Assembly: GCF_014696065.1 (NCBI RefSeq)
Contig: NZ_JACJPL010000008.1
Location: 1 to 60,206, forward strand
Origin: Leptolyngbya sp. FACHB-261
GTDB taxonomy: Bacteria; Cyanobacteriota; Cyanobacteriia; FACHB-261
Length of the DNA: 60,206 bases
Direction: 5' to 3'
Made by a program: the position numbers and the translations under genes. The notes under the pieces were generated by a model, which worked only from the letters and a program-made list of their open reading frames with translations, was not told the DNA's origin and ran no database searches. Positions within the stretch are counted from its first letter, which is position 1; the number at the start of each line of letters is the position of its first letter. Shown here piece by piece: positions 25,729 to 33,938 of this stretch.

Positions 25729-25896
25729 GGGACTAAGCTAACAGCCTGAGCTTAGGGTTTGCAGAGTAGGCAAATTAGGCAAATCAGGGGATGGTGGTAT
25801 GTGGGTTCGGAACTAAAAAGCTTGGCAGGAACTCGCTAAAAGCTGGGAGAAAAGCGCTTACATTCTAGGAATGATAGGCGCAATTTGGTTGGAGGG

Positions 25897-26337
25897 ACCT
25901 CACCCCCAGCCCCTCTCCCGCGGGGAGAGGGGGGCCGGATTTTATTGTTGACTTAGTTGGCTCTTGTATGGGGTTTAATGACTCCGCCTTCCCTCTAGGT
26001 GTAAGTAAGAGAGAAGGGGGTCGGGGGGTTTCTGAGGACCTCACCCCCAGCCCCTCTCCCGCGGGGAGAGGGGAGCCGGATTTTATTGTTGACTTACTTA
26101 GCTCTTGTATGGGTTGTAGCGCTTTGCCTCCCCCTTCCCTCGCAGGGAAGGGGGTTGGGGGGTTAGGTCTCCGGGTTTGGGGGTTTGAGGACCTCACCCC
26201 CAGCCCCTCTCCTGCGAGGAGAGGGGAGCCGGATTTTGTTGTTGACTTACTTAGCTCTTGTATGGGTTGTAGCGCTTTGCCTCCCCCTTCCCTCGCAGGG
26301 AAGGGGGTTGGGGGGTTAGGTCTCCGTTTAGGTCTCC
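25897..26337 (-). repeat. Three tandem units of the GC-rich double-hairpin repeat
   Basis: Units start at 25897, 26038 and 26191 (141, 153 and 147 bp). Each reads ACCTCACCCCCAGCCCC on the plus strand, hairpin CCTCTCC(GCG)GGAGAGG, GAGCCGGATTTTATTGTTGAC, TTACTTAGCTCTTGTATGGG, a second hairpin and GGGGGGTTAGGTCTCC. This is the inverse orientation of the copies at 21648-21899. The right end directly abuts the stop codon of the minus-strand gene at 26338. Long open frames in this stretch are repeat artefacts. Confidence 0.88.
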
Positions 26338-26918: not shown

Positions 26919-27389
26919 CTATGTCGAGGGGGTATCGGACTGGGGTTTGCGATTTTTGCGGAAGCGACGGCCCAAGCGGTCAACGCTGGGGTTGAGGCCA
27001 AAGGCTTTGCTGTTGTCGCGGGCGGAACGGTAGGCGACGCGGGCGGCGGTGTAGGCTTCGGTGCCAGCGGCGATGTAGGTGTCTTCGATTAGGCTCTGGA
27101 GTTCGGCCAGGGCCTCCAAGACGGGGGACAGGGATTCGGTCAGTTCGAGATCGCGCTGCATTTCGGCAACGTCGAGGAAGCCGGGCATGAGTTGCTGGTT
27201 CTCGGTGGCAACTTCTACGGCGGTGCGCACGAAGGAGCGGGTTTTGTCGCCGATGCGGATCATGAGGCGGCGCTCCTGGGGAGTCAAGCTAACTCCAAAG
27301 GAGAAGTGGCTACGGAGTTCGGCAATCTCAGCGAGGACAGCTTCAAGTTTGGCAGGGGGAAATTCGGCGCTGACAGAGTTGGCGGGCAT
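26919..27389 (-). CDS. Conserved hypothetical helical protein
   Basis: 156 residues from ATG 27389 (GGAG ten bases upstream). Predicted mostly helical. Segments include PPAKLEAVLAEIAELRSHF, LTPQERRLMIRIGDKTRSFV and EDTYIAAGTEAYTAARVAYR, with a basic C-terminus (LGRRFRKNRK). I recall similar proteins of about 150 residues, without known function, in cyanobacteria and other bacteria. There is no signal, membrane segment or cysteine. An array of phased dyads starts about 200 bp upstream of its start. Confidence 0.7.
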   Translation of the reverse strand: MPANSVSAEFPPAKLEAVLAEIAELRSHFSFGVSLTPQERRLMIRIGDKTRSFVRTAVEVATENQQLMPGFLDVAEMQRDLELTESLSPVLEALAELQSLIEDTYIAAGTEAYTAARVAYRSARDNSKAFGLNPSVDRLGRRFRKNRKPQSDTPST

Positions 27390-27586
27390 GGTTTTAGATC
27401 TCCAAAGTATTAGAACCGTTGTTTGAGGCTTGAGTTTGAGCTTTGGACTTAGCTTCGAGGCTCTATTTTTGTATGCCCAAGTTTGAGACTGAAAAAACTT
27501 GTTGAGAATACGGAAAAAAGCAGCTATAGCTAAAAACGATCTGGGGGAATTACGGATGGCTGGGGTTGTCGCCTAGGTAAAACCAC

Positions 27587-27875
27587 GGTTTGAACCGAAT
27601 CGTTGTGGGTCGAAACCAAATGCGATTACGGTCTGAACCAAATGCAATTAGGGTTTGAACCGGGTTGTTGGGGGTTGAAACCAAATACGATTAGGGTTTG
27701 ACCTAGGCTGTTGGGGGTCGAAACCAAATGCCATTACGGTTTGAACCGGGTTGTTGGGGGTCGAAACCAAATATGATTAGGGTCTGAACCGGGTTGTTGA
27801 GGGTTGAAACCAAATACGATTAGGGTTTGAACCGGGTTGTTGGGGGTTGGAACCTAAATGGAGGGGGTTGAAACC
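27587..27875. repeat. Array of 14 phased GGTY-NN-AACC dyads (43-bp tandem repeat)
   Basis: Dyads start at 27587, 27608, 27630, 27652, 27673, 27695 (one base short), 27716, 27738, 27759, 27781, 27802, 27824, 27845 and 27866. Spacing alternates 21 and 22 bp, giving a 43-bp higher-order repeat: GGTTTGAACC half, then GGTTGAAACC or GGTCGAAACC half. Whole units are conserved, with no unique spacers, so it is not CRISPR. It sits in a non-coding gap between two minus-strand genes, upstream of the gene at 26919-27389. Confidence 0.9.
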
Positions 27876-27935: not shown

Positions 27936-27956
27936 CCTCCCCTTGGCAAGGGGAGG
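27936..27956. repeat. Short GC hairpin element
   Basis: CCTCCCCTT and AAGGGGAGG form a perfect 9-bp stem around GGC. It is part of a dispersed intergenic sequence (ACGGCTCCTCCCCTTGG… GGGAGGGG). A second fragment rich in G-runs follows at about 28019-28055. Confidence 0.5.
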
Positions 27957-28108
27957 TTGGGAGGGGTATGTGTAGCGATTAAAAAGTGAGTAGGTATTAG
28001 GCAATGAAGACCACACCCTTCAGTTCCCTCCAGAGTTGGGGGGTTAGGGGGGCGCTCGGACCAGGGGTGATGCGGTATCGTCGCAGCCCGCACCAGCAAA
28101 TCAGACCA

Positions 28109-31834: not shown

Positions 31835-33691
31835 TTATAGTTGTTCTTGCTTCCACTCCTCCATCAGTAGAATAGCCCCCTGACGCTGTTTGCTGTTGAC
31901 TAGGGGAGTGCAAGTGATGCGGCACCGGATGCTTCGGCCCCGTCGATTAATTGCATCCAGGAACAATTCTTGGTACTCTGCCTCGCCACTCAACGCATTT
32001 TCAATGGTTGCTTGCAGGCGCTCGACGGGTAGGCCAATATCTAGGTCCAAGAAAAGTTGTCCCTCTACTTCGTCGCTGCGTAGGCCCCATAGCTCTTCAG
32101 CTTGATGATTCCAGATCGAGATGCTGGTATCGCGGTTGAGCACGACAATGCCGGTCCGCAACCCCGTCAAGATCGACTCTAAAAAGGCATTAGTATCGTT
32201 CAGTTCTTCAGTTCGTTCGCGCAATTCTTCGTTGATGGCCTGGAGTTCTTCGTTGGTCGATTGCAGTTCCTCATTCATGGTCTCCATCTCTTCGTTGGTA
32301 GACTGCAGTTCCTCATTGGTGGTTTCTAGTTCTTCGACCGTCGATTGCAGTTCCTCGTTGGTGGTTTCTAGTTCTTCATTGGTCGATTGCAGTTCTTCGG
32401 AAGCAGTTTCGAGTTCCTGGTTAGAGCGTTGCAGCTCAAGTCGCAAACGGTTGTAGCGAGTGACATCTGTGAAGCTGATGCTAGCGCCCAACGATTCACC
32501 ATCGGCATCAAGCAAGGGGGCAACCTGTACATCGAGAAATTGCAGTTCCTCTGCGCTGGTATTGTGTTCGATGTTGCGCAGATCAATGACTTTACCGCTG
32601 CGCATTGCCTCGTCAATGCGCGAGCGCAATTCTATCGGCTGATAGGACAGCGCTAGATCGTGAAAAGGACGGCCCACATCCCGCTGCTTGAGATCAAACA
32701 GGTGGCGTGCTTGTTCGTTAACTAGCACTAGTGTGCCTGCGGCATTCACCACAACCTGAGCCAGTGGCATGGCGTCAAAGCTGGCTTCTCGCATCCGAAT
32801 CTGTCGAGCTAAAGTGCTGCCCACGGTTTCATCCCCCGACTGCGCTAGAACTAGTAGCCGGTCTCGTAAATTTAACTTTGAACTCTTCAGAAAAACGCGA
32901 TGTTTCAAGTTCAAGGGCGTGAACAAGTTGGCATGGGCCAGCAACATTTCTGCTTTGCCTAAAAACAGAAAGCAATCGTCGTTGAGTGCAAAGTGAAACC
33001 GAGATAACACCCGCGATTGGGTCTCTGAGTTGAAATACATCAAGACGTTGCGGCAGATCAGCAGATCTAGATGGGAGATCGGCGCGTCTTGGATCAGATC
33101 GTGACGACCAAAAATCACACAACGGCGCAAGTCATTGCGAAAGGCATAGCGGCCACCTACGAACTCAAAGTATTTTCGGGTTAGCTCCTCAGGCAGAACT
33201 TGGAGGGCTTTGGCGCTGTAGGTAGCTTGGCGCGCCTCGGCCAGGGCTTCTTCGTCTAGATCGGTGGCGTAGATTTTTACCTGGTTGCGAAAAGCGTCTA
33301 TGCCCAAAGCTTCGGCTAGCACAATTGCCAGCGTGTAGGCTTCTTCGCCGGAGGCACAACCTGCACTCCAGGCGCGAATCTGTTGCCCCCCTGATTTGTT
33401 AGCCAGGATCTGAGGAATGACCTCCTGAGCCAAGTAGCTCCAGGCTTCAGCATCTCGAAACAGAGCCGTCACGTTAATCAGGATCGTGTTGAAGAGCTGG
33501 GTAAATTCGTCGGGATACACCTCTAGACGATCCAGATAATCTTCATAAGCTTCCATGCCCAACTCCTGCATCCGTCGGTTTACCCGACGCACGAGGCTAG
33601 AGCGCTTGTAGCCTGTGAAGTCAAAGCCACGACCACGCTTGATGTATTCCAAAAGGGAGTCGAGTCCCTGCTCGGCCTCAGCCTTGCTCAT
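31835..33691 (-). CDS. cheR: CheR-type methyltransferase fused to PAS-coil-PAS
   Basis: 618 residues from ATG 33691 (GGAG upstream). A longer frame to 33730 starts at a non-ATG codon. Residues 1-275 are a CheR protein-glutamate methyltransferase: N-terminal helical part, NVTALFRDAEAW, SAM loop AWSAGCASGEEAYT, IYATDLDEEAL, DLLICRNVLMYF. PAS1 is at 300-412. Residues 425-495 are a striking coiled coil of (E-L-Q-S-T-N-E)-type heptads. PAS2 is at 503-615. Such CheR-PAS proteins usually pair with CheB in large sensor fusions. Here cheB is a separate gene at 36093-37151, with two unknown genes between. No chemoreceptor is encoded in the window. Confidence 0.92.
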   Translation of the reverse strand: MSKAEAEQGLDSLLEYIKRGRGFDFTGYKRSSLVRRVNRRMQELGMEAYEDYLDRLEVYPDEFTQLFNTILINVTALFRDAEAWSYLAQEVIPQILANKSGGQQIRAWSAGCASGEEAYTLAIVLAEALGIDAFRNQVKIYATDLDEEALAEARQATYSAKALQVLPEELTRKYFEFVGGRYAFRNDLRRCVIFGRHDLIQDAPISHLDLLICRNVLMYFNSETQSRVLSRFHFALNDDCFLFLGKAEMLLAHANLFTPLNLKHRVFLKSSKLNLRDRLLVLAQSGDETVGSTLARQIRMREASFDAMPLAQVVVNAAGTLVLVNEQARHLFDLKQRDVGRPFHDLALSYQPIELRSRIDEAMRSGKVIDLRNIEHNTSAEELQFLDVQVAPLLDADGESLGASISFTDVTRYNRLRLELQRSNQELETASEELQSTNEELETTNEELQSTVEELETTNEELQSTNEEMETMNEELQSTNEELQAINEELRERTEELNDTNAFLESILTGLRTGIVVLNRDTSISIWNHQAEELWGLRSDEVEGQLFLDLDIGLPVERLQATIENALSGEAEYQELFLDAINRRGRSIRCRITCTPLVNSKQRQGAILLMEEWKQEQL

Positions 33692-33938
33692 TTCAATCTC
33701 CAGTTCCCCACTGAGACACAAGTGCCCCAAATACCTGTACCGAAATCAAAGACAAAACAAACCTGCCTTGATGGTCGTAATAGCTGAAATGCACTGCTAA
33801 ACACTGCTAAGCATTGTTAAAAGTGACTTAAAGTTCAGTAGAAAGTCTAGTAGACCAAACAGACTCCCCTAACCCTCCAAATACTGAACTTTGCGTAGAG
33901 CTACCGGGCGAGTGTAGTCTACGACATCTTTACAATAT

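Follow-up and report, generated by a model that had tools for sequence, protein, structure and literature searches.

A small all-helical protein gene and an adjacent array of two-turn-spaced dyad sites: a putative two-part element in Leptolyngbya sp. FACHB-261 with counterparts in other phyla

Sequence comparison shows that, in several bacterial phyla (at least four), a gene encoding a small helical protein is linked to a neighbouring array of short, helically phased sites. The window analysed here (60,206 nucleotides of Leptolyngbya sp. FACHB-261, the entire contig C8) carries one such locus. It is probably a two-part element, composed of the gene and an array of putative binding sites for the encoded protein. 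Comparison between loci further shows that the site sequences shift from one locus to the next, while the spacing of two DNA turns and, often, the dyad symmetry are kept.

The array in the window spans positions 27587-27875, without an assigned strand, and holds 14 sites, which start at 27587, 27608, 27630, 27652, 27673, 27695, 27716, 27738, 27759, 27781, 27802, 27824, 27845 and 27866. The spacings between them (21, 22, 22, 21, 22, 21, 22, 21, 22, 21, 22, 21 and 21 bp) and their location agree exactly with the first-pass annotation of this DNA. The same annotation described all 14 as palindromic GGTYNNAACC sites, which holds for 13. The sixth (GGTTTGACCT, 27695-27704, no strand assigned) is degenerate and breaks the pattern, though in register with the others, and the several sites of the form GGTC..AACC are imperfect dyads. 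Two conserved linker types alternate along the array, so that the repeating unit is 43 bp long: GGTYGAAACC, a 12-bp linker (AAATRYGATTAG), GGTYTGAACC and an 11-bp linker (GGGTTGTTGGG). TRF reports 5.2 copies of this compound tandem repeat with 85% match. When the two half-unit types are compared, the dyads agree in seven of eight columns and the linkers in one of 11. The flanks thus do differ more than the dyads between half-units, as had been proposed, yet they are not simply variable, being of two conserved types. The units are also more palindromic than column-permuted ones (z = 2.5, p = 0.033).

Such a density of sites is far from the chance expectation of 1.8 GGTYNNAACC sites on one strand of 60.2 kb: 13 lie within 289 bp, and a single one elsewhere in the window. 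A search of the 6.95-Mb genome for pairs at 21/22-bp spacing, as the first-pass annotation had recommended, retrieved this array and only one further place, C26:76263-76315, while the backwards control pattern gave no such pair in the same genome. The second place falls in an orphan array (C26:76070-76370, equivalent to L016:6070-6370) with the same 43-bp period and degenerate GGTTNGAACC dyads, which has no adjoining family gene and precedes a NACHT ATPase gene by 139 bp. Single sites were no commoner in the genome than the control pattern (298 vs. 534), and a genome-wide regulon was therefore rejected. Two other repeats were seen in the window. A 153-bp tandem repeat with 2.9 copies and CCTCCCCCTTCCCTCGCAGGGAAGGGGG-type palindromes is found at 25895-26314, and similar sequence occurs at 27937-27964 and on C26. 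Repeats of 21, 42 and 84 bp at 32221-32416 lie within a CheR-PAS open reading frame (31835-33730) and represent a coding heptad repeat, unlike the non-coding array.

The proposed cognate protein, 156 amino acids long, is encoded on the minus strand at 26919-27389. The array lies upstream of its gene, separated from the gene start by 197 bp (27390-27586, minus strand), in which no promoter-like match was found. The partner gene was recognized through a GTDB scan for three phased sites, which led to a Capnocytophaga locus with 18 bp between the array and a homolog of ORF 26919-27389 (E-value 8e-10). The protein falls into no Pfam, NCBIfam or PADLOC family, no consistent Pfam match was found among 79 members (the window protein and 78 homologs), and PHROGs gave weak or single-member matches only. 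The AlphaFold2 model is confident (pLDDT 91.8) and all-helical, with one 52-residue helix and a basic C-terminal tail. Neither the PDB nor the viral BFVD contains a matching fold, which does not in itself make the fold new, and the model shows no recognizable DNA-binding fold; a profile search with the family against PDB sequences had no match either. No catalytic motif was seen in the protein.

The family is multi-copy and spans several phyla. At least nine copies are present in the Leptolyngbya sp. FACHB-261 genome, and the nine paralogs are scattered across the cyanobacterial part of the protein tree. Homologs were detected in 77 of 388 genomes from the class of the window organism, in 20 of 247 Bacteroidota (the phylum of Capnocytophaga), in eight of 198 Spirochaetota (the phylum of Treponema) and in three of 194 genomes of the verrucomicrobial set (Verrucomicrobiota). 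Only one of 72,556 plasmids, from a gammaproteobacterial Thiodictyon, carries a member, and the phage records searched contain none. No description of the family turned up in the open-access papers covered by the search, and its novelty is therefore provisional.

The association with arrays holds well beyond this genome. Among 86 unique homologous loci, 59 have a TRF array of the 21/22-bp type at most 700 bp from the gene, and five have one further off. Of the 27 loci without a TRF array, some are located where a contig ends, and several have a weak 21-bp periodicity. Close to the genes, the position-lag autocorrelation peaks at 21, 42, 63, 84 and 105, as well as at 22, 43 and 64, while the far flanks show only the multiples of three expected from codons. 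Of 168 near flanks, 82 had their best period at 21 or 22, compared with 25 of 148 control stretches. The loci from Spirochaetota and Verrucomicrobiota were fetched later and had no part in framing the hypothesis, and an array accompanies 11 of these 13. In the window genome, seven of the nine paralogs have a clear array. The unit sequence near family genes differs from locus to locus, with a period of 21/22 bp or multiples thereof.

Could such arrays be passive satellites, which arise by tandem duplication, have no function and merely hitchhike with the gene? Some of their behavior fits. Units are homogenized within an array, and two near-identical loci (L112 and L114) differ in copy number, with 11 vs. 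16 units. We nevertheless regard this as scarcely credible, because one protein family is linked to arrays with unrelated unit sequences across phyla, the two-turn period is constant, and dyads covary and are conserved between species. Arrays with only 49-66% identity between adjacent units keep one register through 10-25 units, although the region finder itself favors an unbroken register. The first-pass annotation regarded randomized dyads in related strains as the mark of a mere satellite repeat. The opposite was observed, not for the C8 array itself but for three homologs with proteins 79-80% identical, where GAAGCYRGCYTC is kept and the linkers have changed, which points to constraint on the dyad. 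At a greater distance, in homologs with 55% identity, the two arms changed in a paired manner (TCTCCGGAGA vs. ACTCCGGAGT). Coding heptad repeats were likewise rejected as a general cause, because open frames were found in 24 of 51 arrays compared with 26.8 in the permuted null, that is without excess, and ten arrays have periods of 22, 43 or 44.

What the arrays conserve points back to the two-part element and to protein binding at dyads. Across 54 arrays, units were more palindromic than column-permuted ones (median z 1.24, Stouffer 11; 27% individually at p < 0.05), a measure that leans upward because the axis was picked on the same data, with the permuted null maximized likewise. Covariation across the dyad axis, in a test which preserves column composition and has its own slid-axis control, reached a Stouffer value of 5.1, compared with -0.1 for slid axes. 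A weak core, approximately GYTYnRARC, is common to the motifs of the various loci (3.64 vs. 2.68 ± 0.06 bits), and protein similarity correlates with motif similarity (Mantel r 0.28, p 0.0005), to which shared base composition may contribute. The picture is not uniform. Over all arrays, dyad-centred columns are conserved only marginally more than linker columns (0.62 vs. 0.57, p 0.09), with dyads clearly better conserved in several arrays (L079, L118, L164 and L134). The array shared by L112 and L114 is very homogeneous and not palindromic.

These patterns suggest that the protein would bind to double-stranded DNA, with one dimer per dyad. With a repeat of 21-22 bp, all dimers would be placed on one face of the helix and may bind cooperatively, potentially forming a nucleoprotein filament or a bridge at their own locus. 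Judged from sequence, a landing platform for a cooperative DNA-binding protein, as the first-pass annotation suggested, is the best-supported reading. The examples offered with it find no support. For a partition protein, a recurring ParA-type partner is missing from the neighborhoods of the loci. A replication iteron set has against it that no Rep family match was found and that the paralogs are on large contigs, with several copies per genome.

The remaining example, a repressor array, leads to the question whether the protein could repress or activate its own gene or a neighbor from these sites. In the window genome most arrays are indeed upstream of the gene, and the orphan array on C26 lies just ahead of the NACHT ATPase gene, at 139 bp. 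An autoregulatory operator array is improbable all the same, since 44 of 59 arrays, about three quarters, are downstream of the gene, the arrays have 10-25 sites, and no neighboring gene is conserved. The upstream position is found in two cyanobacterial sub-clades, which include the window protein and its nearest relatives, and the side of the array follows the protein tree (five changes, compared with 13.7 when shuffled).

For the two-part element we suggest, with low confidence, a local and structural function instead of the control of a regulon: anchoring, a centromere-like or barrier complex, or a reservoir of the protein. This suggestion is based on the lack of a recurring partner gene (the largest neighbor cluster covers five of 86 loci) and of motif enrichment elsewhere in the genome. 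Taken further, the loci may form a hitherto unrecognized multi-phylum class in which a small helical protein reads only its own adjacent array of phased dyads, with sites diverging by paralog; we propose this tentatively, as a possibility that falls somewhat short of being probable. If true, nature would have supplied a simple collection of orthogonal pairs of protein and array, with a possible connection to conflict systems. This connection is suggested by three of the 13 NACHT ATPase genes of the genome, of which two (C10:66995 and C28:56902) have a family gene at a distance of about 3 kb or less and the third (C26:76898) adjoins the orphan array, a proximity that was noticed post hoc. Several STAND-type ATPases are also among the cyanobacterial neighbors of family genes. 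With up to nine pairs per genome and different sites in each, these loci offer a natural series for studying how protein and site specificity co-evolve.

The main rival to binding on DNA is an RNA-level system resembling TIGR-Tas. In that case, a transcript of the array would be processed to small RNAs to which the protein binds, similar to TIGR-Tas guide RNAs, which are 36 nt long, or the repeat RNA antitoxin of type III toxin-antitoxin systems. TIGR arrays alternate 8-12-nt repeats with 9-12-nt spacers over 5-15 units, and are found up- or downstream of a small Nop protein gene, with repeats that vary by locus (PMC12045711). The C8 array likewise alternates 10-nt repeats with 11-12-nt linkers, and palindromic stem-loop arrays occur among TIGR systems too. 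Furthermore, the arrays of the family are enriched in CTGA (box D) on the antisense strand (122 vs. 51 ± 11 expected) and not on the gene strand. A symmetric dyad alone would not predict this asymmetry, and it keeps the TIGR-like rival alive.

Several observations speak against it. Linkers are repeated together with the dyads, and in L112 and L114 the identity is 94-95% over the whole unit. Box C (RTGATGA) is enriched on neither strand. Neither the Pfam search of the 79 members, Nop included, nor the Foldseek and profile matches to the PDB brought up a Nop protein. Non-complementary cells of the dyad arms, read on the gene-sense strand, were G-T in 172 cases and A-C in 157, so that there is no wobble preference; the absence of a G-U bias is what one would expect of double-stranded DNA, in contrast to RNA. 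Finally, helix geometry accounts better for a spacing of 21/22 bp that is the same in every phylum. On balance, we consider an RNA-level system unlikely, and retain the protein bound to DNA dyads as the preferred reading.

Phased sites also occur elsewhere without this protein family. The GTDB scan yielded 49 stretches of 21/22-bp GGTTNNAACC repeats, and a general class of such arrays was rejected, as they have no common partner gene and two are Rep3 iterons. The family is present in five of the 33 genomes bearing these stretches, and many of the 21-bp matches in other genomes are within open frames and may be coding. One Odoribacteraceae genome, Cd354_bin70, has six 21-bp ATGGTTNNAACCAT-like dyad arrays (L025, L026, L033, L052, L059 and L063) in the absence of the family, some of them in open frames and thus potentially coding. 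In Pasteurellaceae, 22-bp GGTTAAAACC arrays (L044:2687-2763 and L054:843-897) lie by a Rep3 initiator gene and are probably plasmid iterons.

How do the family loci compare with known systems? With TIGR-Tas they share a long array of short repeats with short spacers, locus-specific repeats, and an adjoining gene for a small helical protein, with the array on either side. In TIGR-Tas, however, the spacers vary and serve as guides, whereas the linkers here are repeated, with two types in the C8 array; the repeats carry box C/D there, whereas the sites here tend to dyads. The TIGR-Tas protein has a Nop domain, of which Pfam and the PDB fold and profile searches detected none in the family, although a remote Nop fold is possible. 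Many TIGR-Tas loci are viral or from CPR bacteria, in contrast to a family found in bacterial genomes. TIGR-type arrays, which the first-pass annotation had not considered, are the closer comparison than CRISPR, which it rightly dismissed because the spacers are repeated; in CRISPR-Cas they are unique, and cas genes adjoin the array. Among the second-set neighbors (48), there was one Cas1 and one Cas4 match, and the commonest families in the cyanobacterial neighborhoods include no cas family. In type III toxin-antitoxin systems such as ToxIN and CptIN, too, an array of tandem repeats adjoins the gene of a similarly sized protein, but their toxin is an endoribonuclease and their repeats act as RNA (PMC8860590). 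The protein here is all-helical, without a ToxN-like or other toxin match in Pfam or PADLOC, and its arrays are on either side of the gene with 10-25 units.

The likeness to partition and replication sites is a more general one. In ParR/parC, a small DNA-binding protein acts on an adjacent, helically phased repeat array, and the loci described here resemble it in having such an array next to a small-protein gene, with binding being the inferred part. It is nonetheless highly improbable that the locus itself serves a plasmid or an integrated element in partition or replication, as a parC-like site or an iteron would. No ParA, ParM or TubZ-like partner recurs, there is no motor gene, the family has no ParR-type match, up to nine paralogs per genome reside on large contigs of the chromosome, and a plasmid location is, as given above, the exception. 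The two Rep3 iteron arrays, which were found by pattern and could be cited in favor of a replication site, resemble the family loci in lying beside the gene thought to read them. Yet Rep3 is a well-known winged-helix protein, matched by the neighbor in L044 at 9e-35 and not by the window protein, and the family loci are not origins of small replicons.

The general principle, a repeated site read by its cognate protein, is already established for partition and iteron systems. Provisionally, the novelty lies in the type of locus: a protein family, an array linked to it, and a site that changes by paralog. A family so far without name, fold or function is thereby connected to an array geometry that points to helix-phased cooperative binding, and a kind of repeat array is added that is neither CRISPR, TIGR nor iteron.
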